From Amia ocellicauda (taxonomy: Eukaryota > Chordata > Actinopteri > Amiiformes > Amiidae), in contig NC_089855.1 in the NCBI RefSeq assembly GCF_036373705.1, positions 37,884,219 to 37,948,218 of the forward strand: DNA of 64,000 bases. The letters are read 5' to 3'. Below the pieces are notes generated by a model. It was not told where the DNA came from, searched no databases, and was given only the letters and a program-made list of their open reading frames with translations. Each line of letters opens with the position of its first letter. Within the stretch, counting starts at the first letter, position 1. Of this stretch, positions 9,705-62,964 are shown in pieces. The translations under genes were made by a program, and so were the position numbers.

Positions 9705-9905
9705 GGGGGGTATTCCAGAAAGCGGGATTAGCAAGTAATCGAGATCTGTTGAGCCAGAATTTGAGGAAATCCTGAATTTGCTGTTCTACAAACCGAGATC
9801 AAAGTAATTCTATATCGGTAACTATGACAACACACCCTCTGAAGCTAACCTGCTATCTGGCTGGTAAACTTGAGCTAAGCCTGACCAATCACATATAAAC
9901 ATGGG

Positions 9906-15305: not shown

Positions 15306-16101
<796 letters not shown>

Positions 16102-28478: not shown

Positions 28479-30786
28479 ATGCTCCTGTTAAAACTTCTGT
28501 GCCTGGCTGCTCTTGGTAAGTTGTATATTTTAATGTGCTATAGTATATTCTTCTGAACACTTTCCAACACATTTCTGAGCCATACATATGTATGGTTCAG
28601 AAATCTGTTGGAAATTATTCAGAAATTAGTATTTATGTGTGTGTGGTCCTATAACAGGCATCTGCAACCAAGGTTTACTACTGTTATCTGTTGCAAACAA
28701 ATAAGTAATTTCAAAAATTAAGAAATTATCTTAAAGATTAATTGCAGATGTAATATGCAGTCTGGACTAGACAAGCGTTTTAATTGACTGTCCCTATTTA
28801 AATTTTTGGGGGGATACATTATTAAAATATATTATTAAAAATATTTATAAATAATCATTTGTTTTGTGCGTTTATATGGTTAATAACCTGTAGGTTCTTT
28901 GTGTATTTTTGTCTCAGTGTACTCTTTTCTGTACTGCAGGCCAATGTGAGCTCCCATCTCCTACTAATGTCACCATTATCTCCCTCAACCTGGAGCATGT
29001 ACTCAAATGGGATCCAGGTCCTGGTTCACCAACTGGAACACAATACAGAGTTGAATATTTACATTTCCAGTATGTATCTGCCTGACAGATGACAGTGATT
29101 ACCAAGCGTGGCCCTGGAGAGCCCAGCCACACAGGACCAATCAGCCTCTCCCCATCCAAGTTTATAGACTTGGAAGAAATGCACAACTTTGTTATGTGCT
29201 TACTTAGTTTGTGAGATTAAATTAGGAAGAAGACTATGTAGCCTGTTGACATTTTCATTCCAACGTCTTGTGACATAGTAGGTCCTTTAAACACAAGGTC
29301 CTCCCACTACTCATATGTGCAGGTTTCCAGTAACATTAGAAAAAAGGTCTATTACAGATGCAAGGTGATTCCAATTGCTTGGAAACAGGAAGTCATTTTG
29401 GTTTCAACCCATCCAGTGCCCTGTGTGGGCCTAAATGACTGCTGCCTACCGAAACTACTCAAGGTCCTGGAGACTGCAATTTCCAGTTTGGGATACATAC
29501 CCAAAGAATTTGTTCTTGTAAATGCAGGTACAAATCACAAAAATTACAAGTACAACTCGCATATTTGTGAGTTACCACTCACGTATTTGTGAGTTGGATA
29601 GAGCGTAAAATCACTGTAAAAAATACATCACAAAGGTTACAGGCCAAGATTGTCGATTGTGGAACAATCAGTGAGGATTTAAAAGAGCATGCATTCAGCA
29701 ACAGAATGCCGGTGTTGTGACGTGAATACTCATGTGACATGCTGAAGCTAATGCTGTTTTTGTGTGCTTTTTAATATATCAATGCCAATCTCAATTCTAA
29801 TGCCAATTCTAAATGCTAACATTTTGTTGAAACTTTAAGGTAAAAATGAAAATGATGGAATATATAAAACAAAATTATTTTAAATTGAAAGTATAAACTT
29901 ACATCATGTCGACTGCAAAATACCTTTATTGTATTTTACAATTAACATTTAATAGTCGTGTAATAATCTTTATGCATCCTTTTAAAAAACATTTTGTTTG
30001 TGCAGGCTAGTTTGTTATTTAATTATTCCATTATTTTTGTTTCTTAAAGTTTCTACAAAATGTCTGCAAGATTTCCACTTGCCGTTACATCTAGTTACCT
30101 TTCTATTTTGAGCAACATATTTTAACAAAAAATACATGTATATGACTCCCTCATGATCTCAGTTACATTGACAAAAAGAATCTCTGATATTTTCCATTAT
30201 TATTTCTCTATGGGAGAATTAAAATTGCAGCTCCATAATTAAAAGTGCCCATTTGTGTTTCTTAAATCTGTCCTGTGTAGCCATGTGTGTTAGCATATCA
30301 GTATGAAATATACAGTCACAGCAGTCATGTTACTAACTTGTTGTAACTAACATGGTAGAATTTATTCTTAATGACAGTTAATGTTTTTTGTTTTTTTTAT
30401 ATATAGAATTATGAATACACCTACAACACTCTGTGATCCATAACTATCTTACTCAAACTGTTTTTCACAAATTCTGTGACAGCAATATAATTAAAATGTC
30501 CGCTATTGTATATTTTAAAGGTTTTCAGAGTTATAAATAAGTCTAAACAAGGGAAAGTTAAAAAACGGGACATGTAAACGATTTTGAGAAAATTGTCTGG
30601 ACACCAGGAAGTTTAATTAAAATCAGGGACTGTCCCGAAACCAGGATGCATGGTCCCCCTACCACTGAGGAAGTCAAATGAGCTATTAACTTGTCAAAAG
30701 AGCACTGCACATGTGTTGTTTTTACAATAAGCATATAGCATTAGTATTTTGACAAGATTGGAATTTACTTTGTATTTGTAGCTTTA

Positions 30787-30823
<37 letters not shown>

Positions 30824-32466
30824 TTAAATAGTGGATCCACAATAGAGCAGAATCTCAAAGTCATTTACAATGTCTTGTAGTTTTTGTTCCAGCCAAGCTC
30901 TTAGCTAAGTTTGTCTATTTATTCCCAGCAAAAACTGGTCTCCTGTGAAGATGTGCCTGAAGATCACCAGCCCTGGAGAATGTGACCTGACAGAGGAGTT
31001 CAGGGATATTTTCAAGTCATATGTCGCCAGAGTTCAAGCTTTCACAGAGTTAGAACAGTCCACCTGGTCGAAGTCAAGCTTTTTCCAGCCTATTTCAAAC
31101 AGTAAGACAAGATGCTGTTGTTCTGGTTGTCAAGTGTGTTATGAAATGGCTCCTTCATTTTCAGTAGAGCACAGGTTAAACAAATTACCTTATAAAGACT
31201 CAGGTTTCTGACAATCTTTAACTTCAGCATCATTACCAGCAATACAGAAACAATTACAGTAAGGAAAAAAAAATCGGCATTAATGTGGGAATAAGATCAG
31301 TAAACTTCAGGACGTGCATTAAAGTTAGAAAGGCATATTGTCCCCTAGTGGGGGAGCTAAAGTTGTACAGGTCCAGTTTGAAAACAGGTTTGTCTTGCAC
31401 AGACACTAGAAGATGATCAGGGACTGGGTAGTTTTGACCTCGGTGGGTAGGTCATTCCATCCATTTGGGGCACAGATATGGCACAGATATGGCACAGATC
31501 TCTCATCTCTTCAGACTGATCAAGGTAATGGCAAATAAGAATCAGCATCTCAATATGAGCTGAGATATGAGCCAGTCAGTGGTGAAAGGGGAGCATCGGA
31601 TTAATTTGGAAAATGGAGCCAGAGACAAGAGTCAGCAAAGGTTTCCTGTACATGCTGTGCCACAACGGAGGTAACAGGTGCCAGGTACCTGAAACCTGGA
31701 AGTGTTTTATCAGAGAAAGATGCATTACACTTCTATACATAAAACAGCTCATGGAAATTATGATGATGTCATCCATCTCTGAGCTTGGTAGAGTGTACAA
31801 GCTACAAGCCCTCTGCATCAGGGTCTGCTCATTTGGCATAGTGGGTTTGACACTCTGCTAACAGATCAGAAACTTGGCGTTATCCCAGAGACATTAGTTA
31901 AAATCTGAGTGGGGCTCCACTGCCATACTATACATGCATTGCCTTAGCTGTGTTGTTTTTAATATGAAAAGAAAGTAGCCTAATAGTTTAAGAAGATGCG
32001 TTTTCTTCATCTTTCCTATGTTAGAACAAGGGTTATATTAAATATCAATTGACAATTCAAAATGGGTGGATATTAAATGAAAATAACAAAAAATAAATAA
32101 AGTAAATCACTCCAAATGTATTATGTGTTGTCAATAGAATGAGCAGTCATCTGGCAGTTTAAAATACAGCCACAGTTGACAATGAAAATAAATTGACCCT
32201 CTGTCACAGCTGAATATTTCTGAAACACTGAAGAAACAAATAGTTGTAGCCAGTTACAATTAATCCAATTTCACACTGCTTAATGATTCAGCTTAAGACA
32301 ATTTATCAGAAATGGGACTAGCATCTGATCAAGAGAGGAAATAACAGAGAACTGTGAAGCTTCAAGGCTCATTAACTAAGATTCCTTCAAAAATATAGAC
32401 AAATGTGTTAATACTACCTCAAAATTAAAGGTCTGATCTATTATCACATGTGTATAATGCACAGTA

Positions 32467-32521
<55 letters not shown>

Positions 32522-35500
32522 TTTATTTCTTGGCAGACACCCTTATCCAGGGCGACTTACAACATAAGTGCAAAATACAGAAATAATTGTAATTATCATT
32601 ATTCAAAGGAACACAATGTGAAATACATTTAGTTTATGAATATATCAAATATCAAGTCAAGGCAGGTTATACACAATTTATTGTAATTTACATCAGTTCA
32701 GGATACATAAAGGAATGCTCTGTGCAGAGCCGATCAAATCCCTAGTGGGGAGCTCTGACCCACAATACTGTATGGGAGTACTATGTGAAAAAAACACTTC
32801 TACTATACTATTATAATTGTAAAAATATAAGGGACCTCGTCATACAAAAATTCAAACAAGATACCTAGCCATATATTCAAAGCTGATAATCTGGATTCCT
32901 TTAAGAAACACTAGTATTAATTAGATTAAGGACTTCTTAATTTTTGGCTGGGTTTAAATCAAAACTTTGACCCATCCGCTAATAGAAAACTACAGAACTG
33001 TACTCAGTTGCGGCTTCATTTATAGTTAGATGCCACTTTCTTCTAATCATAAATGTAACCGCTATGATGTACAGGTTTGTAGTTTTCTATTAGCGGGTGG
33101 GTCAAAGTTTTGATTTTATCAGGCACTTTGTCTCATAAATGGCATTATGCATAGCATCTGTTGTTGATGACCAATACATTAAACCATGTTTGTTGTATCT
33201 AAGAAAATGTAAAAAATGCAAAGCTGTTATTATAACTGCTTTAAGATTGGATTAATCTGATAGAGACAGCAATGGTTTGCTGTTTAAAATGTGTTTCACT
33301 TTTGGGTTTATGTTTATTGTACTTCAGTGATGATTGCAACATCTGCAATATTTTTGAATAGTTCTGAATCAAATTATTTATAAATAGACTTACAAAGAAA
33401 TAGGATTCCAAATTATACCAATTACTTTTTATCCTGTAATGAACATAACATATAGAACATAACTGAATGCAAACTGACATCATGTATTGGTGTCAAAGTT
33501 TATAAACTGATCAGGGTTAAAAATACAAACATATTACCTAAACTTTAATCAACATGGAGTCGTGTATAATGCCATGGTAATACATGATGATATGTTGTTT
33601 AGGAGTGCCACTATTTTCTCTTTAACCTTCAAGATTAATGTCTGTTTTTCTGCCTTCAAGCAGGGCCTTTGACAACTGTTCATGTTCAATTAACTGAATG
33701 TTTAAATCACTGTTACATTCCAGCAATCCTGGGTCCTCCTGAAGTAACTGTGTCTGGCTGTGGCGATTGCCTTCATCTACAGGTGAAGCCCCCAAAGGGA
33801 AAGAGAATGGACCACTTCTTAGCCTACTACGAGTCTGAATACATTTGCGAAGTCCTGAGTGCCACAGATGGAAGAAAGGCAAGACAGTTACCTAGCTATT
33901 GGAAAGTACACTGCACAATAATTTCCATTTTGTGGTCATATGTACCATTTATGTATATATTGGGCATTGATGTTTTAGAAAAAAAATACTTTTTCTTGCA
34001 GTTGAACACACTTGTGGTTTACTGTCTCCACCATACCACTTCCCTTTTAAAGTAAACAGGTGTCCAATTAAAGGAAATTATATTTCTGACACACATTGTT
34101 TTGATACCTAACCAAACAAGTCACAAACCAGATCTGGGTAAATACAAAGATCTGTTATCAGTACAGTACCACACATTTTTTTAAGACATTGCTGCTGATT
34201 AGATTCAGATTCAGGTGCATTACAGTAGCAATATTAGAAAAATAAAAAAATACTGTTTTTATTATTTGGTTTTAGAATACGTTTTTCTTTATTTATAAAA
34301 AAAATATTTGTAAACCATTACTGGACTACACAATAATATATTAAATATTTTGTAGAAATATTATTATTTTGTTAACATTACTAAATATTTATGAGATTAA
34401 TCCCTTAATTATGAAATTGTCACTTTATAATAAAATGTAAATATGAGTTGAAATATCATAACATTGACTAAGTTATTCAGAATTAAAACGGTACACTTCA
34501 CAATGTGAAATTGACGATAACTATTTACATAGACATTCACATTTGATTGTTGTATATTTTAAGATTTCACAGTATTCCATTGTATTCTTTACAGGAACTG
34601 TAACACAAATCCAAAGTCAGTGAAGCAATATGTAAGAAATTAGTTTATAATGTTTTTGTTTAGTTTTTTAACACCTTCACACTGGTTTTTTTTTTTACAT
34701 CTGGATTTGTATTTATTTTTTTAATTTCTCTACATATAATGTTCTCCAAGAAAATACATATTCTGTTGACTTTTTGTTTCAGATATTCAGTATGTTTTGA
34801 CAATATACATCAGCTTAACATCTTTATTTCTTATGTTCAGACATTAAATATTGCTTTACAAATGCTCACACAGAAATGTAAAGGGGAAAATGTTTTATAC
34901 TTAAATGTACTAATTTAACTATTTTCTCTCTTTTTATGCAGTTCACCCTGAGAATTTCAGGACAAAGAGTTATTGAATATTTGAAACCTGCCACAGAGTA
35001 CTGTGTCACTGTGAAAATGTACATAGGAATCAATCAGCATGCTATTCTTTCTAATCCACACTGTGTTTTCACCAGCTTACCTCATCTAAACAAAGGTACA
35101 CAGTACACAATTCTGTTGGGAAATGTACTTTTGGGCTTTTAAAAGTAATTAATCAATAACGGAAGAAAGTATTCAAACAAGAGAGGACATTATTGCTCAT
35201 TTGGTTTCAAGTAGTTAATCAACTTGAGAATTCCATTCAGACATTTTGTGCAGAGAGCACAATTCCATGGTTGGGTATCTTGTTCCATACTCTTGCAACT
35301 CTTTGAGTAAATATGTAAACTTTTTTTTCATAAGTATATTCAACAAAATGCATATAGTGTACAACATTCTAATATTATTTTCCTTTGATAAAGGGTCAAA
35401 TGTACAGAAGCGTATTGCTGCCACCTGAAAAAAACAAAATACGAGTTTTTTGTTTTTTTGTTTTTTTTGCGTATTTTGGGGGCATGTTGCTGCCAGAGAA

Positions 35501-35762
35501 TGTTTTGTTTGTTTGTTTTTTTAGGTAGTGTTTTGTTGCCACGAAAAAATTAATAAATCAATTGTAGTTCAAGACCATTTGTAGTTCTTATGGATAACCT
35601 CACGATTCGACAGAACTGGATAGGAACTGAAACTATATTGCACTTGCGAATCATTCTAAATATGCATCTCTTTAGTTAAAAGCCTGATATATTTAATTGT
35701 GTTGAAATGGTCTTGCACTACACATTTATTTTTTGTGGCAACAACATGCCTAAAAAATAATA

Positions 35763-35801
<39 letters not shown>

Positions 35802-38800
35802 ACTCCCCTTGCAGCAACACAAACAAACAAACAAAAAACGTAGAACTATATTGTAAATGTAAATACAACTATAAAATAGATGTTTTTATTATTATTATTT
35901 CTTATACATTTAAATGCATTTTACATATATTTATTATTTACATGTATTTCTCACCACTATATGACTTATTTTTAAATATATTTGTATTTACTTTGACAGT
36001 ATATTCAATGATTCAAAGGGATAGAATCTGTTTAAAAGTAGCTAATACAATACACTTTGAAAAACACTTTGATAAAAAAAAATACATTACTAAATGTATT
36101 TGGAAAAAGTAGACAGGAATAAACTGGTTAGTATATTTTAGGTAAAATAGGTGTTTTGTTGTAACATGAAAATGTACAGAACATTAAAAAACTTTTTAAG
36201 TAATAGATAGCAATATATATTTTAAACATATTTTTTTAAATACATATTTTAAAACTTTCTCTTCCATTTGGATTAATGCCCATGTCATCTGAAAGCAGTT
36301 ACAATTGAAATACCCTCAAAAAAAGGTTATACAATATGTACATGGACAAATTGCAGTAAAATATAGGAATGCAAGGTGCACTTATGTGTGTAAAGATACA
36401 CTAAGCCATGATACAAATATAGCTAAGCAAAGTAATTCCATAATAGTAATAATAGTAATAGTATAATCATAGAAAATGTACCATGCAAATGTACTGTGTA
36501 AAATGTTCATAACGGTAAAATGTATAGTGTCAGGCTGAATCATATATAGTCCCTTCTGTTTGTTTTGCAGTCCCTGTTGTACTAGGCCTGTTTTGCTTGG
36601 TCTTCTTGCTGAGTGTTATGGTCTGGGGATTCCTGTTCTACGGTTACATTCTGCGCTCTCTTTAAAAACATCTCCCAAATTCTTTGGTAAGGGATTTTTC
36701 TAATTCTATACAGAACCTTCCTTTCCAATTTAATCTATTCCAGCCTTATTCTGTAGTCTGTTCTTAAATTAATTTGCAGAAGCAGACTGCTTTATAGACC
36801 TGTTATGGAAGTGCCTGTATTTGATGTGCAGTATTTCTTTGAAGACAGCCAGGGCATTAATATGCTATTTTCTGTCTGAAATTGGCTGTCAGATTAATGA
36901 GTGTGTGGAAAATGTGAAAAATGTTTCTTTAATAAAACAAAATCACAATTATAATACAAAATCTGTGCTGGTGTGCTACAAGAAAACACAATCTTTATCT
37001 GTATGAGGCCTGATTGTTGTAATATGTAATCATGAGCAATAAGATCAGTTTAAATTCAATTTCTTAAATTGTGCAGTTTTCAAAATTAAAATAATGAATG
37101 GGAACTTTTTGGTGTAGGTCCATGACAATTCACCTTGTGACAATTGATCCTTGTGACAATTCTTCCATGCTGCAATTCGCCACCATCATATGTTCTCCAC
37201 ATAATCATTTGTAACCATGACTGCATTAACTTGTAGAGAGACATGCAAAGTATACATATATAGGTACATATACAGCTCTGGAAAAAATTAATATATACAC
37301 TGCTCAAAAAACACTTAAATCACACATCGGATCTGATAAACTCATAATGTGACTCAGTAGTGTGTATGGCCCCCACGAGCCTGTATGCATTCCTGACAAC
37401 GTCTGGGCATGCTCCTAATGATACGGCAGATGGTGTCCTGGGGGATCTCCTCCCAGACCTGGATCAGGGCATCAGTGAGCTCCTGGACAGTCTGTGGCAG
37501 TACTTGGCGGCATCGGATGCACTGATACATAACGTCCCAAAGGTTCTCAGTTGGATTCAGGTCTGGGGAATGTCAATGGCATCAATGCCTTCGTCATCCA
37601 GGAACTGCCTACATTGTCCTGCACCAGGAGGAACACAGGGCCCACTGCACCAGCGTAAGGTCTGACGATGGGTCTGAGGATTTCAACCCGGTACCTAACA
37701 ACAGTCAGGGTACCGTTGGCTAGCACAAGGAGGTCTGTGCGACCCTCCAAGGATATGCCTCCCCAGACCATCATTGACCCACTGCCAAACCGGTTATGCT
37801 GGATGATGTTGCAGGAAGCATAACGTTCACCACGAGGTCTCCAGAATCTTTCACGTCTGTCACATGTGCTCAGTGTGAACCTGCTCTCATCTGTGAAGAG
37901 AACGGGGCGCCAATGGCGGACCTACTAATTCTGGTGTTCTCTGGGAAATGCCAATCGAGCTGCATGGTGCTGGGCTGTCAGCACAGGTCCCACTAGAGGA
38001 CATTGGGCCCTCATGCCACCCTCATGGAGTCTGTTTCTGACAGTTTCGTCAGAAACATGCACACCAGTAGCCCACTGGAGGTCATTTTGTAGGGCTCTGG
38101 CAGTGCTCCTCCTGTTCCTCCTTGCACAAAGGAGCAGATACCGGTCCTGCTGCTGGGTTGATGCCCTTCTATGTCCCTATCCAGCTCTCCTTGTGTAACG
38201 GCCCATCTCTTGGTATCTCCTCCATGCTCTTGAGAATGTACTGGGAGACACAGCATACCTTCTTGCGATGGCACGTATGGATGTGCCATCCTGGAGGAGC
38301 TGGACTACCTGTGCAACCTGAATGGGTTGCAGTTACCACCTCATGCTACCAGTAGTGACAAGGACACTAGCAAAATGCAAAACTAGAGAAGATTCAGTCA
38401 GGAAGGATAAGGAGAGAGCAATTGTCTGTGGCCACCACCTGCAAAACCATTCCCTTTTTGGGGGTTGTCTTGCTGTTGCCTCCCCAGTGCACCTGTTCTC
38501 ACTTTCATTTTCACCAAAACAGGTGGCATTGATTCACAATCGCTTTGGTTTCCTAACTGGACAGATTGATATCCCTGAAGTTTAATTGACTTGGTGTTAT
38601 ACTGTGATGATTACGTGTTCCCTTAATTTTTTTGAGCAGTGTATATATATACACTCACCTAAAGGATTATTAGGAACACCATACTAATACTGTGTTTGAC
38701 CCCCTTTCGCCTTCAGAACTGCCTTAATTCTACGTGGCATTGATTCAACAAGGTGCTGAAAGCATTCTTTAGAAATGTTGGCCCATATTGATAGGATAGC

Positions 38801-41800
38801 ATCTTGCAGTTGATGGAGATTTGTGGGATGCACATCCAGGGCACGAAGCTCCCGTTCCACCACATCCCAAAGATGCTCTATTGGGTTGAGATCTGGTGAC
38901 TGTGGGGGCCAGTTTAGTACAGTGAACTCATTGTCATGTTCAAGAAACCAATTTGAAATGATTGGACCTTTGTGACATGGTGCATTATCCAGCTGGAAGT
39001 AGCCATCAGAGGATGGGTACATGGTGGTCATAAAGGGATGGACATGGTCAGAAACAATGCTCAGGTAGGCCGTGGCATTTAAACGATGCCCAATTGGCAC
39101 TAAGGGGCCAAGAAAACATCCCCCACACCATTACACCACCACCACCAGCCTGCACAGTGGTAACAAGGCATGATGGATCCATGTTCTCATTCTGTTTACG
39201 CCAAATTCTGACTCTACCATCTGAATGTCTCAACAGAAATCGAGACTCATCAGACCAGGCAACTTTTTTCCAGTCTTCAACTGTCCAATTTTGGTGAGCT
39301 TGTGCAAATTGTAGCCTCTTTTTCCTATTTGTAGTGGAAATGAGTGGTACCCGGTGGGGTCTTCTGCTGTTGTAGCCCATCCGCCTCAAGGTTGTACGTG
39401 TTGTGGCTTCACAAATGCTTTGCTGCATACCTCGGTTGTAACGAGTGGTTCTTTCAGTCAAAGTTGCTCTTCTATCAGCTTGAATCAGTCGGCCCATTCT
39501 CCTCTGACCTCTAGCATCAACAAGGCATTTTCGCCCACAGGACTGCCGCATACTGGATGTTTTTCCCTTTTCACACCATTCTTTGTAAACCCTAGAAATG
39601 GTTGTGCGTGAAAATCCCAGTAACTGAGCAGATTGTGAAATACTCAGACCGGCCCGTCTGGCACCAACAACCATGCCACGCTCAAAATTGCTTAAATCAC
39701 CTTTCTTTCCCATTCAGACATTCAGTTTGGAGTTCAGGAGATTGTCTTGACCAGGACCACACCCCTAAATGCATTGAAGCAACTGCCATGTGATTGGTTG
39801 GTTAGATAATTGCATTAATGAGAAATTGAACAGGTGTTCCTAATAATCCTTTAGGTGAGTGTACAGTGAGGGAAAAAAGTATTTGATCCCCTGCTGATTT
39901 TGTACGTTTGCCCACTGACAAAGAAATGATCAGTCTATAATTTTAATGGTAGGTGTATTTTAACAGTGAGAGACAGAATAACAACAAAAAAATCCAGAAA
40001 CACGCATTTCAAAAAAGTTATACATTCATTTGCATGTTAATGAGGGAAATAAGTATTTGACCCCTTTGACTTAGTACTTCGTGGCAAAACCCTTGTTGGC
40101 AATCACAGAGGTCAGATGTTTCATGTATTTGGCCACCAGGTTTGCACACATCTCAGGAGGGATTTTGTCCCACTCCTCTTTGCAGATCCTCTCCAAGTCA
40201 TTAAGGTTTCGAGGCTGACGTTTGGCAACTCGAACCTTCAGCTCCCTCCACAGATTTTCAATGGGATTAAGATCTGGAGACTGGCTAGGCCACTCCAGGA
40301 CCTTAATGTGCTTCTTCTTGAGCCACTCCTTTGTTGCCTTGGCTGTGTGTTTTGGGTCATTGTAATGCTGGAATACCCATCCACAACCCATTTTCAATGC
40401 CCTGGCTGAGGGAAGGAGGTTCTCACCCAAGATTTGACGGTACATGGCCCCGTCCATCGTCCCTTTGATGTGGTGCAGTTGTCCTGTCCCCTTAGCAGAA
40501 AAACACCCCCAAAGCATAATGTTTCCACCTCCATGTTTGACAGTGGGGATGGTGTTCTTGGGGTCATTCCTCCTCCTCCAAACATGGCGAGTTGAGTTGA
40601 TGCCAAAGAGCTCGATTTTGGTCTCATCTGACCACAACACTTTCACCCAGTTCTCCTCTGAATCATTCAGATGTTCATTGGCAAACTTCAGACGGACTTG
40701 TACATTTGCTTTCTTGAGCAGGGGGACCTTGCGGGCGCTGCAGGATTTCAGTCCTTCACGTTGTAGTGTGTTACCAATTGTTTTCTTGTTGACTATGGTC
40801 CCAGCTGCCTTGAGATCATTAACAAGATCCTCCCGTGTAGTTCTGGGCTGATTCCTCACCGTTCTCATGATCATTGAAACTCCACGAGGTGAGATCTTGC
40901 ATGGAGCCCCAGACCGAGGGAGACTGACAGTTATTTTGTGTTTCTTCCATTTGCGAATAATCGCACCAACTGTTGTCACCTTCTTACCAAGCTGCTTGAC
41001 GATGATCTTGTAGCCCATTCCAGCCTTGTGTAGGTCTACAATCTTGTCCCTGACATCCTTGGACAGCTCTTTGGTCTTGGCCATGGTGGAGAGTTCGGAA
41101 TCTGATTGATTGATTGCTTCTGTGGACAGGTGTCTTTTATACAGGTAACGAGCTGAGTATAGGAGCACTCCCTTTAAGAGAGTGCTCCTAATCTCAGCTC
41201 GTTACCTGTATAAAAGACACCTGGGAGCCAGAAATCTTGCTGATTGATAGGGGATCAAATACTTATTTCCCTCATTAACATGCAAATCAATGTATAACTT
41301 TTTTTATATCTCCAGTAATTCAGTCACCTAATCAGGACACTTGGCAGTGGTGGCTGTAGGCTACTTTAAATACATTAATGTTTGTATCTCCGCTGGCATA
41401 GTGAAAAACAGAACACTCATAGTTCTTTAGCAATATAACTAAAGCCAAACCAAGTTGCTGAAAATGTATGATCAGAAATAATAGAATACAATGAAAAACA
41501 CTAGAGAATGTTACTAAAATAACATTATATTACTAAGATAATTGTTTGTAGAATATCCACAATCCAAAACAATGCTATTAATCTAAATAATAATTTCTAT
41601 AACTTTCTAATATTGGAAACTACCAAAGCACAGATATACACCACAATGTTGTATTTACAACTCTGACAAGTTACTATAATTAAAGCATCACTTTTCCTCT
41701 TTCTCTACCTCTCTAGATGTCTTTGTCTTTTGATGCAAGCACTCAACAGGTCAACACTCCAGAAATGGATTGCTCAGTCAATTTCCTTAAATTAGACATG

Positions 41801-41932
41801 GAAGGCAAAAGGTGTAACTGGTACCACTTGAACACCAGTGTCAAAGAGGAGAGTGTAAGAGAAGAAGATAAAGGCTATGGGCACATTACATGCAATGCTA
41901 GTCCGGATACACACACTAACTTTCAACAATAG
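28479..41932 (+). CDS. ifnar2: IFNAR2-like class II cytokine receptor (CRFB1-3 group), seven exons, in-frame stop after the membrane helix
   Basis: Exons: 28479-28515, 28940-29069, 30929-31101, 33724-33878, 34942-35095, 36571-36686, 41717-41932. All phases agree (981 nt, 326 residues if the internal stop is ignored). Exon 1 gives the signal peptide [13 protein letters not shown]. Domain 1 (about 14-113) holds [20 protein letters not shown]. Domain 2 (114-216) starts TILGPPEV and holds PATEYCV and the IFNAR2-like [10 protein letters not shown]. Residues 217-240 form the membrane helix. Codon 248 (36663-36665) is TAA. KHLPNSL follows, like the box 1-type LPxxL site of IFNAR2, and the last exon gives a 71-residue tail with GYGHI. 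Intron 4 has a GC donor. The family binds type I interferon at the cell surface with IFNAR1. The next gene is IL10RB-like, matching tetrapod order. IFNGR1 is a less likely alternative. Confidence 0.82.
29070..30928. other. Intron 2 of the IFNAR2-like gene
   Basis: AT-rich with an (AAT)n run at about 30787-30823. No transposon with clear ends was recognised. Confidence 0.5.
31102..32466. other. Intron 3 of the IFNAR2-like gene, 5' part
   Basis: Non-coding; a small tandem of GCACAGATATG lies at 31478-31500. An 82-codon frame at 31613 has no family match. Confidence 0.4.
32467..32521. repeat. (ATT)n microsatellite
   Basis: About 18 ATT units, probably the tail of the LINE/SINE fragment next to it. 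Confidence 0.95.
32522..32575 (-). mobile_element. L2/SINE-type 3' tail fragment
   Basis: TTGGCAGACACCCTTATCCA and GGGCGACTTACA form the 3' end shared by many fish L2 LINEs and their SINEs, next to the ATT run that is its tail. Confidence 0.6.
32946..33125. repeat. MITE M, copy 1 (intron 3)
   Basis: The ends are inverse copies: TTAAATCAAAACTTTGACCC at the left and GGGTCAAAGTTTTGATTTTA at the right, with homology through CCGCTAATAGAAAACTA. The core holds CTTCTAATCATAAATGTAAC. The second copy is at 49668-49850. Confidence 0.85.
33879..33880 (+). other. ifnar2: Non-canonical GC splice donor of intron 4
   Basis: Exon 4 must end at GGAAGAAAG (33878) to join phase 0 to TTCACCCTG at 34942. The donor is then AAG|GCAAGA, the usual context of GC-AG introns. 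A GT further on (WK|GTAC at 33905) would add extra residues that the IL10RB-like neighbour lacks. Confidence 0.65.
35460..35845. repeat. Imperfect inverted repeat in intron 5, with (AATA)n
   Basis: TGTTGCTGCCAGAGAATG and TTTTGTTGCCACGAAAAAAT on the left face TTTTTTGTGGCAACAACATG and CCTTGCAGCAACAC on the right, around a loop near 35650. An (AATA)n run fills 35763-35802. It may be a decayed foldback element. Confidence 0.45.
35846..36570. other. Intron 5 of the IFNAR2-like gene, 3' part
   Basis: Very AT-rich, no element recognised. Confidence 0.4.
36663..36665 (+). other. ifnar2: In-frame TAA codon directly after the receptor membrane helix
   Basis: In exon 6 the frame fixed by both neighbouring exons reads GYILRSL, then TAA, then KHLPNSL up to the donor at 36687. 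Removing or adding a base in the nearby T or A runs would break the phase match with the last exon, so a substitution fits better than an indel. The stop lies 21 nt before the last exon junction, too close to be expected to trigger nonsense-mediated decay. Confidence 0.75.
37296..38643 (-). mobile_element. Tc1-like element G in the last intron
   Basis: The ends TACACTGCTCAAAAAACACT and (inverse of right end) TACACTGCTCAAAAAAATTA enclose 1.35 kb. The minus strand keeps transposase scraps: [20 protein letters not shown] and [17 protein letters not shown]. There are many frame breaks. It directly precedes element D2. Confidence 0.8.
38650..39863 (-). mobile_element. Tc1 element D2, complete ends
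   Basis: Same family as D1: TACACTCACCTAAAGGATTA at the left and its inverse at the right. The right-hand TA (39862-39863) is shared with the start of E1. Confidence 0.95.
38684..39713 (-). pseudogene. Tc1 transposase, D2 copy, 11-bp frameshift
   Basis: The frame starts at [20 protein letters not shown] (39713) and keeps [16 protein letters not shown], including the arginine codon that is a stop in D1. At about 39108 it lacks 11 bp that D1 has (TAAAGTGTGCC on the + strand, next to a GCC repeat), which shifts the frame after GMFSW. The downstream part (39100-38684) still encodes [12 protein letters not shown] and [12 protein letters not shown]. It differs from D1 by very few bases otherwise. 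Confidence 0.9.
40071..41084 (-). CDS. Full-length Tc1 transposase of E1 with a lost catalytic aspartate
   Basis: The frame from [20 protein letters not shown] (ATG at 41084) runs 337 codons without a break; an upstream in-frame ATG at 41168 lies in the palindrome and is unlikely. Residues 1-50 form the first helix-turn-helix and about 70-120 the second DNA-binding part. The catalytic triad should be D153 (WSDETKIE), D241 and E276 (NPIENLW), with 34 residues between the last two. Here residue 241 is tyrosine (QHYNDPKH, codon at 40362-40364), whereas E3 has QHDNDPKH. The protein could still bind ends but should not cut. Confidence 0.9.
41130..41222. repeat. Palindrome with a TATA box in each arm (E family)
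   Basis: GGTGTCTTTTATACAGGTAA and its near-perfect inverse TTACCTGTATAAAAGACACC bound arms of about 45 bp joined through AGGAGCACTCCCTTTAAG. On the minus strand the near TATAAAAG sits about 60 bp before the transposase ATG. Copies occur at 45614-45707 (E2) and 59455-59548 (E3). Confidence 0.85.
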
Positions 41933-48900: not shown

Positions 48901-49433
48901 AGGAGCTCATCGTTTTTGATCGGGTTCCTATGGAAGTGCACAGAAACCCCTCCAGTTAGTTCAGAATATTACCAAGTTGTCCCTTTTCCATCTTAAGAAC
49001 ATTGCTCGACTGTGCCCTGTCTGTGGCAGAAAAGCTTGTACAGACTTGATTATTGCAATGCCTTACTTACTAGTGTGTCTCAGTCTGGTGATCACATAAT
49101 TCCTATACCTGAGGTTGCCAGATTTTTTGGCTGGTGCCCGCACTATATATTTGGGTCACACAGCTTATATCCAATTAGGCTATGTAACACACTTCCCATT
49201 GTGATCCGATACCCTGATCTGTGACTAGGAGCCCTTAAACTCAGTTTATTTGTTGTATGAATTAAATTATTATGATTACAATTATTCATTAAAAATAATA
49301 ATAATGGTACTATGCATTCACTGTCCAGTAATATTTTGTCTAGTCTTGACAAGAACATGAGTTGGAATCTGACAGTCCTGGTCTTGGTCTTGGACTTGTA
49401 TGGGCTGGTCTCAACACTGACATACAGATGTAC

Positions 49434-49435
<2 letters not shown>
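48901..49435. other. Unassigned intergenic sequence
   Basis: 48930-49080 (CCAGTTAGTTCAGAATATTA, TGATTATTGCAATGCC) resembles the end of a decayed non-LTR RT. It is too short to classify. Confidence 0.35.

Positions 49436-49519
<84 letters not shown>
49436..49519. repeat. (ATT)n then (GTT)n compound microsatellite
   Basis: About 16 ATT units pass directly into about 11 GTT units. Confidence 0.95.
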
Positions 49520-49520
<1 letters not shown>

Positions 49521-50129: not shown

Positions 50130-53100
50130 ATGGGGTCCTTTAAAATCTGTTTTATCGAAAGCTGCTGTATATTGCAAGGTTTGTACCTTTTAACTTTAGT
50201 TGTGTATTTGTGTGTGCTTTCCGAGAGCTTTCAGCTATGGTAATGAACGAAGTTCTACGATAACTTGATTAGCAGTTTTAAAATGTATGTAGACTATAGA
50301 ATGTGTAGAATAGGATATTAAAAATGTTATTAATTATTTTCCACAATATTATGACTTGTCTTAATATGTCATTCGGTTGTTTTAGAAACCGTTCGGGGAA
50401 CTTTAACCATTTTAGCACATATTTTACAAATGTAAAAAATCGCATATTGATTCAATGAAAAGTAGTCTAAAGAAAACAGGCCAAAGTACAAATTGTCCGG
50501 GTTTCTTGAAAATAAACCATTTAAATATTCAACATGATGTCTATATACCCCGAAATATAGATTTTATAGTTAATATACTTAGATATTTTATTAACGCCTA
50601 TGGGTCTGGATAATTGTATCACTTCATCAGTGCTGGGAAATTGTATCTTCTTACTGACTAGGTAGTTTGCGTTACATCGTATATTTAAATCAGCTACATT
50701 ACAGACTGTGGGTTACCGGTACCTATAGAAAATAATATAACTTTCCCTGTGTCTCGAAATTTCACTGTGTCAGTTAATAAAGATGTGTGCTTCTAGACAA
50801 TCTCTAGAAATGTTAGTTTTCTGCAGAACATAATAGAGCATAGATGTAAATGTAATTTAAATTACAGTTATAGAGAATCTGTGTGAAAAATGCTTGGTAT
50901 GCCAAAGCAATGCCAAAAAATATGGGAAACTATTTTTTTTTTGTTCATCTACTATGGCAGCTGAATTATCATTGCATTGTGTTGCTTACATTTTGTATTC
51001 AGAGATCATATTTATATTTCCAGTGGTGCTTGCATCTTTACCTCCTCCAAGAAATGTAAGAGTGCATTCAATAAACCTTGGAGCCACACTACAATGGGAC
51101 TATGAGGCTTCTGCAACCAATGTCACCTATACTGCAACATTCATATACAAGTTAGTGGTTTAAATTCAATGATATTGGCATGATTATTAGTTATTTTTCA
51201 CAGTAGAAATGTTCTGTCCAAATATACAATTGTTTGGGGTTTTGTAAGAAATACAGTCAATCTTCAATATCATTTTAAATATATTTATTTGTTAACTGTA
51301 TACAAATTAGGGGATTGTATAATATGTTTGCAGGAATTTAATTACAGGTAAACAGAAAGACAAAAAAGCCTGAAAAGAATGGTCTTTCACGAGTAAATAA
51401 TCAAAGACCAAGCCACTAATTCAGGATACCCAAACTCATATATTTATAATAAATGTATTATAAGTTTATACATTTTTAAAATATTTTTTGGAAACACTAT
51501 GGAAAATAAAGCAGGATTAATGTCAAAGCCAGATGGTACTATTACATGAGAGATGCTATTATACAACACAAGAAGGGAGTAATGCTTACAAAGGCAGCTT
51601 TATGAGCAGTCAGGAGTAAATTTATACAATTTTGGAAACACATTGATTGAAAAAGGAATCCTTCTCCTGAGGGCTTATGGGGAGCTAATATTGTTGTTAA
51701 CTAAAGGGCAGTATTCATGAGACAGTGGTCAAATCTCAGAGTAGATTCTTCCTTCTGTATGTTAATGCAAGTCAAATTTTAACATTGCACTTTGGTTCTG
51801 TTTTTGAGTTGCAAAATCATGTTTGCAGTTTCTGCTCTTCCCTGAATTTTTGTAGGTCTTGATAAAGAAAAAAAAAGTATGTTTAAACACTAATTTGTAG
51901 ATTTAAGTGAGGAAATACTTTAGTGAAAGGAAACAATCAAATTTCAGGATGACTAATGTTTGTGTGTGTGTGTGTTTTTGAATGGTAATATGTTAGCAGT
52001 GCTTATTTTGGTAGTGTATGTGGCACTGAACGAAAGGCTAATTAGATTTTGCAAGTCAGGCTATAAAGGATTTGATTGATTTCACATTACTCCATTGGTT
52101 CATGACACTATGTTCTGAAGTTTCTGGTATTACAGGGGAAATAAGTGAACAATGCGAAACATGATTCCTTAAAACTGTGAGGAAGGTAATGCTTCCTCAC
52201 TTCTAAAAAAGGAGAACATAAGATGTGTCAATGTTTTGTTGTACTAAGCAGTGAGGTTATTATTTTGTTTTTAACATTTTTGCATTCAATACTTTTTATT
52301 TATTTTATTTAAAGTATTTAATGCATACAGTAGGCTCCAAATGTATTCAAGCAATCAACATTTAGTGAATCGTCTTTGGCTATGCTAACATTGAGGAAGC
52401 CATTTCTATAGCATTGTAATTGGTTCATTAACTTCTCAGGTGGAATATTTGACCACTTCTGCATGCAGAACCTCTCCATCTCCTTCAGCTTGGAAGGCTT
52501 GAATTTTTCAGTTATAAACTTAATAAATTTGAACATTGCATATTTAGAAATACATTCAACCATTTTTGACAGATATTCAATTGATGCATATAATATTGAT
52601 AGTCATTAAGTTTTTATTAATTTATTAATGTTGTTTAATCAGAGTTACATTTTTGTTGCCTCCAAATATACAGAAACAGCAGGAGGAACACAAAATGCAC
52701 TGAAAATCCCAGTGATATCCTGGAGTTTAGGAAAATGTGCTTGAAGCTTTATATTGGTTGAGGAATGCTGCAGAGAGTGGTTTCAAACCCAGTTCATGGA
52801 GGACAGTCTCCAGTAAGATCTCTTAATTTCACAGTTAATTAATTATGAATTAGAAATTATTAAAAGCAGGCTTAGCTTGTTCATATGTGTAGGTGGGGCA
52901 GAGCCCAACTAAAAATGAATCCACTCAAAAACATAGTGCTTTCTCAGAAACTCGTTATGCATATCAATATGACGTTATCTCAATGACTTGTTTGTTTATG
53001 CACAGTAATTCAGCAATAGGATTCATTTTAGAAAATGTGTAGGAATAATTAACATGTGAATTTATTTAAATTTAGCACCAATTTTAAAATCCCATTCTGT

Positions 53101-56100
53101 TTAAAAGTGTCCCGGGATTGTGGGGCCAGGTAGCAACCCTACCTAATGAGAGAACGAAAGGTCTGGTGATATAATAACAATATTGTACTTAATGAGAAAT
53201 TGTGGTATATAAACTTTGTCTGATTGCATGTTCAGTGCTTTTTTGTATAGTTTTTGTTAGTTGGGTCGTGAAGGTTTGTCATTCTATAAATGTGGGTTGC
53301 CGGGAAAAAAGTATGAAAACCACTGATCTAGACTATTATATTTCACAAAACAAAAAATTCTTGTTTTTCAGATATTTATATTTTTCATCCTGGCTAATAT
53401 TTTATATTCTTTTTTTTTATTTTTATTTTTTTCAATTGAATTGCTTTTCTCTGGAGTGCGACATCGCACAGGGCCACAATTTGGCAGGCTAGAATCAAAT
53501 AGACCTCTGTTATAACCTCACCTAGTGGAGTAAACAAGTCAGTGCAGGCTTTATATTTTTCCAGATGAACATTGTTTTATTCCCTGTAAACTGTATATTA
53601 CATTTATTCCTTCTTAATTTAGCCTTAGTCTTTCAAGGTTTGAACACTTCAATTTTTTTAGAATATACAATCATCTTGGTTTTGCATTTTGGAGTTGAAA
53701 ACACTGAAAATCTTAACCTTTTTTTTTCTTATACAGAACTGGAGAAGTTGTGGAAGAGACTGCATGCCAGGGGATTACAGAGAGAAAGTGTGACCTCACA
53801 AAGCTGTTGTCAGTTTTCGGTCAATACAATTTCAAAGTGAGAGCAGAGCAGGGGATTTTCACATCCCCGTGGGTGCAGAGTCCACGTTTCTCATTGGAAT
53901 TGAACAGTAACTATCTTTAACTATCCATTTGTAGGAAAGAAATTCAGTATTGTTGTAACATCCTGCAGTCACCTCTGAAAACAATATCTCAGGAACACTG
54001 TAATTGGAATTAGGGATGCACCGAAATGAACATTCTTGGCCGACAACAAAAGTCCATTAAAAAGTGGATGAACCCACAACAAATTAATAATCGTCCTAGA
54101 CATAAGCCTACTTGGCCTACTTCTTCAGGAAAAGTGGCTGGTTCTTCTTTATGAAAAGTAGTAAGACAAGTAAGACAAGCACCTAGGATCGGAATTGGGA
54201 TAAAATTAACTTTTTCGGCCACTAGCCACTGTGTCTGGTAGAAGGAAAAAACTTACCAGCCACTTGGTATTTTTACCAGCCAAAGGCAAACATCACCAAA
54301 AATGCATGAGGGTGCATAAGTGTGTGGTGAACATGTTAAAACATGGCAATTATTCAGGTAATTAATCAAATCACTATAACAAAAGCTAATTGCAGGTGTG
54401 TATGAGGGAAAAGGATCTGGATAGAAAAAACATGCTCCCACACAGTTTCTACTTGCAAGTGTTATAAGGTCTTTGACCAAAACACTGCATTCTGTTGAAT
54501 TATAACACTTGCTAGTAGAGGCGGGAGCATCGTTTTCAAATTAATCAATCACATATGAAATAACATGGCAGCTAATGGAGATCAGTATAAACACACTAAA
54601 CTAGCACATGAAAAGGGGTTTTATATGGTGACACATTATTGCTCTTCATACTCCTCTTCCTCTTCAGTGCTACTCCCTTCTCTGGGTCTCTGCACGTCAT
54701 TAAAAGGATTTCATTGGATTGGCTAGATATTCATAGAGTCACGGTCTGTGGTTGGGTAAAAAAATATATAATCTCTAGGAATGATGACAGATAGTAACAT
54801 CCTTTCCACTGGTAAATACCATGCACGCCAGCAAAGACGCGATTTAAACAAACCGCACGTTTCTCTTCAGCAGAATCTCCGCTACGCAGCAAAAAATGCA
54901 TGTCTCTATCGCAAATCATTTAAACACAAATTAATACGTTGTAATTGATGCAATTGATGAATACTTATCTAACACAACAACTTTGTTAAATAAATTTCAA
55001 TGTAAAAATACATTATTAGAAGACATATGGAAATGGCATAATAACAGCAGACCTGTCAACTCTCAAGCATGTCGTGTCAGACTCTTGTATTATTGTCCCG
55101 ACATTATCACGACTTTTTATTGTTACAATTTCAAATTAACTATAAAGGTTGTGACTATTTGTTTTATAAAGGAATATTTTGCAATTACAGCTGTAATTGA
55201 CCGAACAATATGTTTTTCTTTTTCATTTTTTAATACATTTTCATTCAATTGCCAGTTTAGCAATGTGAGCTGCAATGAAAATGCATTAGCATTAGCATTA
55301 GCTTCCTTGTGGCAATGTTTTCCAGTCACAATATCGAAATGCAAAATGTATAAGACCTATCTAGCTAGCTAATTTACACAATCTACTTGACTAAATGATT
55401 GACTTTTCCTGTCCACACCACACTCAGAATAAACAAAATAAACAGCAATAGCTGGTTGCTATTTGATCGTGTCATCAAAAACGTAATTGTTCGGTAACAT
55501 TTATTCGGTCTTTTCACTTATTTCGGTTGCCAAACATTCGGTGCATCCATAATTGGAATTTACAGGTACTTTAAAAAGGGCTCAGTCTTCTAACTGGGCT
55601 CCTATACTGTGCGCAAAGACTCCAATTATTGTGCAAAAAAAATGGATAAAGAAAGGAAACCCATGAAGTATCCTTAATGAAAACCAAAAATTACACATGG
55701 ACAAATATATTAACTTGAAAAGAATTGCATTTTCAAAACTGGGCTCGACACTTGGGAGTCAATTTATGAGAAGACTGTCTATGCTGGAACTGAGGTTGCC
55801 GGCCATTTTATTGGCTGTTGTGGACCCATTAGGCTACTTTTTCGTGTAGTCATAGATGTAGTGCAAATAAGCACAAATAAGAATATTAATAATGGAGAGA
55901 TCTTGAGAGATGTATGACTCACTTATTCTGTCAGCTGAAGCTCCGTTTTCTCCTTTCTTGTTGTATATTTTTTCAACCCTCGCTATTGTGTGAGGTGAAC
56001 CTTGTTCTAGTTCCACAATTTTCATATGTGCTTGGAACAATTTTCAATGCTAGCATGTCTTTTTTAATCATCACGGTTATCAGCAGAGTGATTTCCATGC

Positions 56101-56950
56101 TTATTTTAGTGTCACGTTGGTGCCATTTTGCCGATTGTGTGAGCCACATGAAATGAGACTGCAGTAGGCCTATAGACTGGCATAGTACAACTCACAGTCT
56201 TTTTTTTATTCATACTTTTTTATTGCTTTTTTAAATTAAATAATTTCAAATGTCACAACCCTTAGGATAATGTCACATGGATAGATTATTTTTATATATA
56301 ATTTAGACAAAGGTTTTTACACTTGTTTTGTATCTTCTAAAATTCAGCTACTCTCAGAAGTAATTTAATACTAATATCACGTCCCTTTGAATATTCAAAT
56401 ATTTGAATACTTGTACCTAGTTTGTCTTAAGAGGACATTTAGTGGAGACTTACATGCTATTTAGACTGTGCCCAAATCTTCACTAACCAGCTAGGGGGTA
56501 GGAACTGGATCAACGTGTGGATTGAGTGGAAAACACCAGGTCTAAGTATAGGAAAACAATTAAGAGGAAGTTTTGTTCTGTAGGCTAGATTAACAATACT
56601 GCAAAAGCAGGAATTACATAAAGAATTTGTTGCCTAATAATAAAATAGTGATGTTGGCCTTCGGAGAATATCTTACCAGTTTGTTCAAATGAAAAGAAGA
56701 AAAACAACTGGCATATTAATTGGTGCATTTGAATTAAGATTAGTCTGCACAGTAGCAGTATATTAATACTGAACTTTTCTCTACAGCAACTATCGGACCT
56801 CCCTCACAGGTGTCTGTAGATACTGCAAATGGTTTTTTGCATGTACAACTTCAGGATCCTGTGACTAACTTTAAAAACAAGACTCTGGAAGATGTTTATG
56901 GTTCAATTGAATTCAATGTTAGATACTGGAAAGATGGTGAAGAAGAGAAA
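50130..56950 (+). CDS. il10rb: IL10RB-like class II cytokine receptor (CRFB4), first four exons
   Basis: Exons: 50130-50178, 51024-51150, 53737-53906, 56787-56950 (510 nt, 170 residues). Their phases match those of the neighbouring receptor gene. Exon 1 gives a hydrophobic start (ICFIESCCILQVVLA across the junction) and is the least certain. Domain 1 reads LPPPRNVRVHSINLGATLQW, with an NVT glycosylation site, then ERKCDLTKLL and YNFKVRAEQGIFTSPWVQSP. Domain 2 starts TTIGPPSQVSV and holds DVYGSIEFNVRYWKDGEEEK, which closely follows the mammalian IL10RB pattern ending in YWKNGTDEK. The second half of domain 2, membrane helix and tail are not found up to 64000. The family chain pairs with IL-10, IL-22 and related receptors. 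IFNAR1-like (CRFB5) is the main alternative. Confidence 0.78.
51151..52325. other. Intron 2 of the IL10RB-like gene, 5' part
   Basis: AT-rich with a short (TG)n at 51962-51976. No element recognised. Confidence 0.4.
52326..52560 (-). mobile_element. Tc1 remnant: end and transposase tail
   Basis: TACAGTAGGCTCCAAATGTA looks like a Tc1 end. Next to it the minus strand reads EMERFCMQKWSNIPPEKLMN, like the C-terminal [15 protein letters not shown] of Tc1 transposases. The rest of the element is gone. Confidence 0.5.
53100..53325. mobile_element. hAT-like remnant
   Basis: The segment ends in ATGAAAACCACTGATC, preceded by GGGTCGTGAAGGTTTG and TGGGTTGCCGGG. This is the usual end of several vertebrate hAT elements (CAGTGGTTTTCA inverted). 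The left end is not defined. Confidence 0.4.
54011..55551. mobile_element. hAT element K, non-autonomous, with a perfect 8-bp duplication
   Basis: It begins TAGGGATGCACCGAAATG and ends with the inverse of TATGGATGCACCGAATG. ATTGGAAT occurs directly on both sides (54003-54010 and 55552-55559), the 8-bp duplication expected of hAT. No transposase frame is seen within 1541 bp. It sits in intron 3 of the IL10RB-like gene. Confidence 0.9.
54506..54711 (+). repeat. Dispersed repeat L, copy 2, inside hAT K
   Basis: It matches 8123-8330 in the opposite orientation, with GTGACACATTATTGCTCTTC and CATACTCCTCTTCCTCTT shared. It lies wholly inside the hAT element, so it was either carried by it or inserted later. 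Confidence 0.6.
55560..56786. other. Intron 3 of the IL10RB-like gene, 3' part
   Basis: AT-rich, no element or exon recognised. Confidence 0.4.
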
Positions 56951-61232: not shown

Positions 61233-62964
61233 AGGAGGAAGTGAAACAGATAAAGGGCAAAAATTGAGGTATCTTGGAAAACAAACAAGATGTGGCAAAT
61301 GTTCTAAATGAGTATTTCACAGAGGTTTTTACAAAAGAAAAGACAGATAACATACTACAGGTTAACAATCAGTCCAGGCAAATCCTAAGAGAGATCAGGA
61401 TAAATGAGTAGGAAGTACTAAAGGGACTAGCAGAATTAAAAACCAACAAATCACCTGGGCCAGATGGGATATTTTCAACAGTACTTAAAGAAATTAGGGA
61501 AATTATTTATAGGCCGCTAACTCAAATATTCCAAAGAACAGGGGATGTGCCAACTGACTGTAAGATGGCAAATGTCATACCAATCCACAAGAAAGGGGAC
61601 AAAACCAGGAAATTACAGACCAATCAGTCTCACCTGCATTACTTGTAAAATGTTGGAAAAAATTATTAGACAGAAAATAGAGGAGCATCTTAATGAAAAC
61701 CATATTCTTGGAGATAGTCAACACGGGTATAGATGAGGCATATCATGTCTTACTAATTTATTAGAATTTTTTGAACATGCAACTGCAGCTGTAGATCATG
61801 TGAAAGCATATGATATGATATACTTAGATTTCCAAAAAGCTTTTGATAAGGTTCCACACCAAAGACTGATCCTCAAATTGGAAGCTGTAGGCATTCAGGG
61901 CAATGTAAGTAGATGGATTATGAACTGGTTGATGTATAGGAAACAAAGGGTGTCGATTAGAGGAGTTGCTTCTAACTGGAGTGAGGTTGTTAGTGGAGTT
62001 CCACAGGGATCAGTATTAGGGCCTGTGCTTTTTCTAATCTATATTAATGATCTGGACTCTGGGATAGTTAGCAAACTTGTCAAATTTGCAGATGATACTA
62101 AAATAGGTGGTTCAGCAGATACAATCTTGGCAGCACAGGCTATTCAGAGGGACTTAGATAATATTCAGTTTTGGGCCGACACCTGGCAGATGAAATTCAA
62201 TGTGGACAAGTGCAAGGTAATACATGCAGGTAACAAAAATGTCCACTATAATTACACTATGGGAGGTACAGATCTAGATGAAGTAACGCATGAGAAAGAT
62301 CTAGGAGTGTATGTGGACTCCTCACTTTCTCCATCCAAACAATGTGGGGAAGCAATAAAATAGGCAAACAGAATGCTAGGGTATATTGTCAAAAGTGTAG
62401 AAATTAAAACAAGGGAAGTAATGTTAAGACTGTACAATGCACTAGTTAGACCTCATCTGAAATACTGTGTGCAGTTCTGTCCACCACACTTCAAGAAGGA
62501 TATTGCTACTCTAGAGGCAGTTCAGAGGAGAGCAACCAGACTTATTCCAGGTGTGAAGGGAATGTCCTACTTGGAGAGACTGAGGGAGCTGAACCTTTTC
62601 ACCCTGTAACAGAGAAGACTACGTGGGGACTTGATCCAGGTCTTCAAAATCATGAAAGGCATCGACCACATCAAACCAGAGGAGCTTTTCCAGATCAGCA
62701 GGGACACACACACCCAGGGACACAAATGGAAATTGGGCTTCAAGGCATTCAAAACGGAGAACAGGAGACACTTCTTCACACAGAGAGTAGTCACAATCTG
62801 GAACAAACTCCCCAGCGATGTGGTAGAAGCTGAAAGTTTGGGAACATTCAAAAATAGACTGGATAGGATCCTTGGATCACTTAGATATTAATGCACACGA
62901 AATGAGCTCAATGGGTCAAATGGCCTCCACTCGTTTGTAAATTTTCTTATGTTCTTATGTTCTA
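61233..62964 (+). mobile_element. CR1-clade LINE J, 5'-truncated
   Basis: It starts within the linker before the RT (GTGAAACAGATAAAGGGCAA) and ends with the tail TCTTATGTTCTTATGTTCT. It interrupts the transposase of Tc1 element H. It is the most complete copy of the family that is also scattered through 15.2-19.1 kb. Confidence 0.85.
61400..62891 (+). pseudogene. CR1 reverse transcriptase and C-terminal region, broken
   Basis: LKTNKSPGPDGIF-like fingers (61440) and KPGNYRPISLTCITCKMLEK lead to ILGDSQHGYR. From 61800 an open frame holds MIYLDFQKAFDKVPHQRLIL (first catalytic Asp), GVPQGSVLGPVLFLIYINDL, then KLVKFADDTKIGG (FADD catalytic block) and VDKCKVIHAGN. The C-terminus reads HKWKLGFKAFKTENRRHFFT and VTIWNKLPSDVVEAESL. 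Stops and shifts at 61410, 61600, 61736, 62363 and 62609 inactivate it. Confidence 0.85.

Follow-up and report, generated by a model that had tools for sequence, protein, structure and literature searches.

An in-frame stop codon between the membrane helix and the box-1-like motif of a tandem IFNAR2-like gene in Amia ocellicauda, with the predicted anatomy of a membrane decoy

The membrane exon of a class II cytokine receptor gene in Amia ocellicauda has gained an in-frame stop codon by substitution in the assembly analysed here. The gene lies in a window of 64,000 nucleotides, by which we mean the whole stretch of DNA that was analysed (C6:37884219-37948218); the genome searched comprised 988,188,214 bases in 385 contigs. 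We read the gene as the third of three tandem IFNAR2-like genes (the CRFB1-3 group), which gained a stop and whose product would act as a passive membrane sink for interferon, and we give this reading a probability of about one half. From sequence features alone, a membrane decoy is plausible, with an early loss-of-function allele close behind it in likelihood.

Gene structure and domains

The class II cytokine receptor gene is complete in the window and has seven coding exons on the + strand, spanning 28479-41932 (Table 1). The first-pass annotation of this DNA, made by a model from the letters and a list of open reading frames, had covered the 3' end of the gene; the coding part starts at 28479. 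The joined exons come to 981 nt, the phases of all seven are consistent, and they encode, in order, a signal peptide, a pair of fibronectin-III domains and a single membrane helix, followed by a putative last exon of 71 codons. Within this frame there is one internal stop against 325 sense codons.

Both domains that define the class II cytokine receptors are present in the window protein. Pfam Tissue_fac matches residues 4-102 with 9.9e-25 (86.9 bits vs a cut-off of 27), and Interfer-bind matches residues 114-209 with 2.5e-16 (60.3 bits vs a cut-off of 21). The start phases of exons 2-7 are 1, 2, 1, 0, 1, 0, which are the common exon phases of the class and are identical in the two upstream relatives, A and B, described below. 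The introns are GT-AG, except for the GC-AG intron at 33879-34941 after exon 4; both relatives carry a GT donor at that place. The cysteine pairs 53/62 and 174/194 (numbering from exon 2) are retained in the window gene. The domain-1 pair is missing in A and the GCGDC pair of domain 2 is missing in B, both of which are long-tailed.

Table 1. Coordinates of the receptor gene, its stop codon and its neighbours. Positions refer to the window unless they carry the contig prefix C6.
Feature	Position	Strand	Basis
Coding exon 1, signal peptide	28479..28515	+	Phase fits exon 2; donor gtaagt
Exon 2, fibronectin-III domain 1, first half	28940..29069	+	Phase; Tissue_fac match
Exon 3, fibronectin-III domain 1, second half	30929..31101	+	Phase; Tissue_fac match
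Exon 4, domain 2, first half; GC donor	33724..33878	+	Phase; Interfer-bind match
Exon 5, domain 2, second half	34942..35095	+	Phase; Interfer-bind match
Exon 6, membrane helix, eight residues, stop, box-1-like KHLPNSL	36571..36686	+	116 nt; donor gtaagg
In-frame TAA, codon 248	36663..36665	+	Sense codons there in A and B
Putative last exon 7, 71 codons and TAG	41717..41932	+	Weak likeness to A/B tails
Relative A, exons 2-7	C6:37802087-37823770	Same as window gene	
Relative B, exons 2-7	C6:37852547-37875623	Same as window gene	
IL10RB-like neighbour, first exons	51023..56950, continues beyond	+	2.4e-20; next gene downstream

Elsewhere in the window, there is an open frame at 61412-62891 and another at 9885-10403, which we take to resemble a LINE-type reverse transcriptase and a HARBI-like transposase, respectively. 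Long triplet-repeat tracts at about 15420-15580 and 49420-49520 give runs of Gln or Asn and of Leu when translated.

A tandem array of IFNAR2-like genes

The 100 kb upstream of the window contains two further receptor genes, relatives A and B, which share the build and strand of the window gene. A whole-genome search with the window protein, which scores the best candidates only and so gives a lower bound, returned at least 23 matches; six are the window gene itself and four (E < 1e-6) are exons of A or B. The other 13 are weaker, and one of them is a further exon of A. Over the ectodomain, the window gene (C) shares 82 of 198 aligned residues with A and 83 of 199 with B, and A and B share 65 of 193. 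A search of viral_contigs for relatives gave one pattern match, without confirmation.

The window gene holds the cluster position of IFNAR2 and CRFB1-3, next to an IL10RB-like gene. Against solved structures, its ectodomain is more strongly matched by IFNAR1 (2.1e-20), IL20RA (2.3e-20), and IL10RB (9.5e-14) than by IFNAR2 (1.4e-7), so the structure comparison alone does not name the gene. That IFNAR2 is not the closest structure is not decisive, A and B being alike in this: B is best matched by IFNAR1, with IFNAR2 at 5.7e-7, and A has no IFNAR2 match at E 0.001 among the solved structures. From the tails of the relatives and the gene order, we infer that A, B, and the window gene form an IFNAR2 (CRFB1-3) array with the window gene as its third member. 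The IFNAR2-like identity proposed in the first pass is therefore upheld by gene order and the long-tailed tandem relatives, the ectodomain by itself not being decisive. Taken feature by feature, the window gene has the domains, exon phases, and gene order of an IFNAR2 and lacks the translated box 1 and the long tail.

Downstream of the IL10RB-like gene, receptor-like first-domain exons were seen at C6:37991557 and about C6:38047113. These perhaps belong to two IFNAR1-type copies, as named by position and weak matches.

The stop codon in the membrane exon

Exon 6 reads through the strongest 21-residue hydrophobic stretch of the window protein, then YGYILRSL, and then the stop. The predicted product is 247 residues long and extends eight residues past the membrane helix. 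Behind the TAA, the same frame continues with KHLPNSL, and 78 codons stay open. The first-pass claims of a stop in frame between helix and tail, and of a membrane-anchored product of this length, thus hold for the complete gene. In IFNAR2 and CRFB1-3, box 1 is translated behind the helix; here the corresponding KHLPNSL sits past the stop.

The position of the TAA is occupied by an Asn codon in A and, with B aligned from the exon end, by a Lys codon in B. One residue past it, the three genes read HLPRVL (A), SIPEVL (B), and HLPNSL (C). Given sense codons in both relatives, the stop is most simply derived in the window gene, which supports this part of the first-pass interpretation. Exon 6 measures 116 nt in both A and the window gene (113 nt in B), and the stop is therefore a substitution, not a frameshift. 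With the TAA codon excluded, there are 145 single changes by which the coding sequence could acquire a stop; 6 of these (about 4%) fall in codons 240-255, so the location of the stop is no more than mildly unusual.

The end of the TAA lies 21 nt before the last exon junction (36686). The usual distance limit for decay is 50-55 nt, and since the stop falls inside it, decay of the transcript is not expected, as had been argued from the 3' end alone.

We consider it very improbable that the stop is an assembly base error or a variant private to a single fish. A single assembly stands behind it, exon 6 DNA matches that assembly only at itself, and the TAA sits in a T3A5 context, where a run-length error is the likely type; a sequencing error was among the options named in the first pass. 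However, the usual run-length type of error would break the frame, and it is unlikely here because the frame behind the stop is intact and still matches relative A.

Splicing, readthrough, and polyadenylation around the stop

We scored ten GT sites in exon 6 as donors using a splice-site score matrix. The used donor scored 7.6 and the best other 2.0, the latter lying inside the helix, and no AG is present between the stop and the exon 6 donor. No usable splice site that removes the stop was found in exon 6, which speaks against transcripts that splice around the TAA, an escape the first-pass annotation had allowed for. Skipping of exon 6 as a whole is possible and would yield a predicted soluble form of 221 residues.

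Regulated readthrough, also raised in the first pass, would give both a short and a tailed form from one transcript, and the 78 open codons behind the stop would be in keeping with it. TAA, on the other hand, is the least leaky stop codon, and the spliced RNA past the stop is not unusually structured, folding no better than shuffles (z 0.42; 135/200 shuffles as good). We regard readthrough as extremely unlikely.

We also considered the AATAAA at 36931, in the intron about 245 nt past exon 6, as a poly(A) signal that could give a second route to a short form, and set it aside. It is not distinctive, because A (at 201 nt) and B (at 109 and 267 nt) also carry AATAAA after exon 6.

The putative last exon and the signalling tail

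The last exons encode 234 aa in A, 233 aa in B, and 71 aa in the window gene. The tails of A and B contain GYEH and GYEN motifs and end in GYLTR and GYMKR; human IFNAR2 ends in a C-terminal GYxxR. The long tail with a GYxxR end that marks IFNAR2 and CRFB1-3 is thus found in A and B and is absent from the window gene. The first-pass annotation had described an intact tail downstream of the stop. Its last exon is indeed open and in phase, with 71 codons and a TAG, and the frame is open from the stop onward, but an exon of this size, without GYxxR and only weakly like the tails of A and B, is hardly an intact tail.

Among 1621 open segments of the window, exon 7 was the best match to a profile of the A and B tails, but with an E value of 0.69 (the next was 2.7). 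A hidden long tail exon was sought with the same profile, and none of the 1621 window segments was better than the one at 41717; nor was any remnant of the A/B distal tail in the window found below E 1.7. In pairwise alignment, exon 7 scored 45 against the B tail (30/2000 shuffles as good) and 36 against the A tail (185/2000 shuffles as good), where it aligned to the acidic end of A. In a blind search with exon 7 as the query, the B tail came out on top among 559 segments and the A tail in second place among 297. Compared with the human IFNAR2 tail, exon 7 gave no signal (score 25; 353/1000 shuffles as good), and the membrane part plus tail gave one chance match only (E 2.5) against solved structures. 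Given so weak a likeness to the tails of A and B, either the signalling tail had probably been shortened by the time the stop appeared, or exon 7 is no genuine exon.

If exon 7 is not real, the receptor would normally end in or shortly after exon 6, and the TAA would be its ordinary end or a small shortening. The weak likeness to the A and B tails points this way, as does trout IFNAR2, for which PMC3828176 gives a tail of 24 residues. We nevertheless think this unlikely, as the acceptor (ctctctag), phase, and position of exon 7 fit, no segment of the window resembles the A/B tails better, and the JAK1 site is retained in the trout short form but falls past the stop in the window gene.

The intron before exon 7 contains two adjoining elements with transposase-like frames, at window 38642-39863 and 39862-41304. 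Many copies in the window and its flanks resemble them at 91-98%, and one of the two elements contains an open frame of 376 codons (40071-41201, - strand). We presume that the elements at 38642-41304 are Tc1-like.

Membrane decoy or recent loss of function

In the predicted product, the signal peptide and the two fibronectin-III domains are followed by a single helix and eight residues on the inner side, with no box-1-like motif. If expressed, it would be placed at the membrane and may still bind interferon and the common IFNAR1-type chain. Box 1 is the site of JAK1 recruitment. Without such a motif, recruitment of JAK1 would not be expected, and the product could only occupy interferon and the partner chain. 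It would in this way dampen the response by acting as a passive membrane sink, and signalling would be left to the long-tailed A and B. Helix present and signalling tail absent is the anatomy of an IFNAR2 decoy, and the predicted product has it; the anatomy would then be that of a membrane decoy, with decoy activity a prediction.

The distal STAT-docking tail was probably lost earlier, and the stop would then have completed the loss of signalling. Whether this order made a dedicated, genome-encoded membrane decoy, which lost first its STAT-docking distal tail and then its JAK1 site through a stop before box 1, is a more doubtful proposition. The same speculative reading would make the gene a gene-level counterpart of the splicing-derived primate IFNAR2 decoy isoform.

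The gene could instead be an early pseudogene or a segregating loss-of-function allele, that is, a redundant third copy with a recent nonsense change that is functionless in this state. We rate this somewhat below the membrane sink. In its favour, two long-tailed relatives adjoin, one nonsense without a frameshift is the pattern of recent loss, and a single stop in a redundant copy fits equally well. Against it, all splice sites are usable and the ectodomain is open with its cysteine pairs, which fits a still constrained ectodomain too. The several disabling lesions expected of a pseudogene are absent, a state that is compatible with a young one.

How young can be gauged from the lesions themselves. 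Assuming 0.1 indels per substitution, an unconstrained gene would have a probability of 0.42 of carrying no frameshift and not more than a single nonsense change at 1% neutral divergence; the value falls to 0.054 at 3% and to 0.006 at 5%. With the probability so low beyond a small divergence, we conclude that the loss happened recently or that constraint still acts on the ectodomain.

Comparison with known receptors

The comparisons below draw on excerpts of the cited papers. In fish, several IFNAR2 copies (CRFB1-3) are described in a review as lying in one region together with IL-10R2 and IFNAR1 (PMC5332411), and the clustered teleost CRFB1, CRFB2, and CRFB3 have the same domain build as the window gene. 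The intracellular regions of CRFB1 and CRFB2 are given as longer than that of CRFB5 (PMC8980424); such long tails are found in A and B, whereas the window copy has next to none.

A short-tailed fish IFNAR2 is already known from trout. This receptor, called CRFB3-like, is reported with 268 aa and the JAK1 site LPKT(S)L in its short tail (PMC3828176). It differs from the window gene in that its JAK1 site is kept, whereas the corresponding motif here is behind the stop. A review excerpt instead mentions intracellular CRFB2 and CRFB5 in trout (PMC4929537), so the naming of the trout short IFNAR2 is not settled between these sources. A literature search covering the openings of abstracts found no report of a tail-less fish CRFB and none of a stop before a JAK1 site. 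The two long-tailed relatives in the same cluster make the question of non-signalling members among the extra fish IFNAR2 copies directly testable. If the window gene is only a failing copy, it would document decay within a much duplicated antiviral receptor family.

Outside this family, IL18R1-Short is reported in a preprint as a membrane decoy (PMC13232192). Like the window product, it is a cytokine receptor cut after the membrane part, but it belongs to another receptor family, and a transposon-derived poly(A) signal within an intron gives rise to it (PMC13232192).

The nearest comparison is the short IFNAR2 of primates, made by Alu exonization and described as a decoy in a review (PMC12992808). 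It has the IFNAR2 ectodomain and helix without the signalling tail, as does the predicted window product. The primate form arises by splicing from a gene that produces the long form as well (PMC12992808), whereas the window copy carries a genomic stop in one tandem copy, before the box-1-like motif, and its decoy activity is predicted. If true, a genome-encoded truncation in a tandem copy would be a second route to a primate-type, tail-less IFNAR2 brake on the interferon response.
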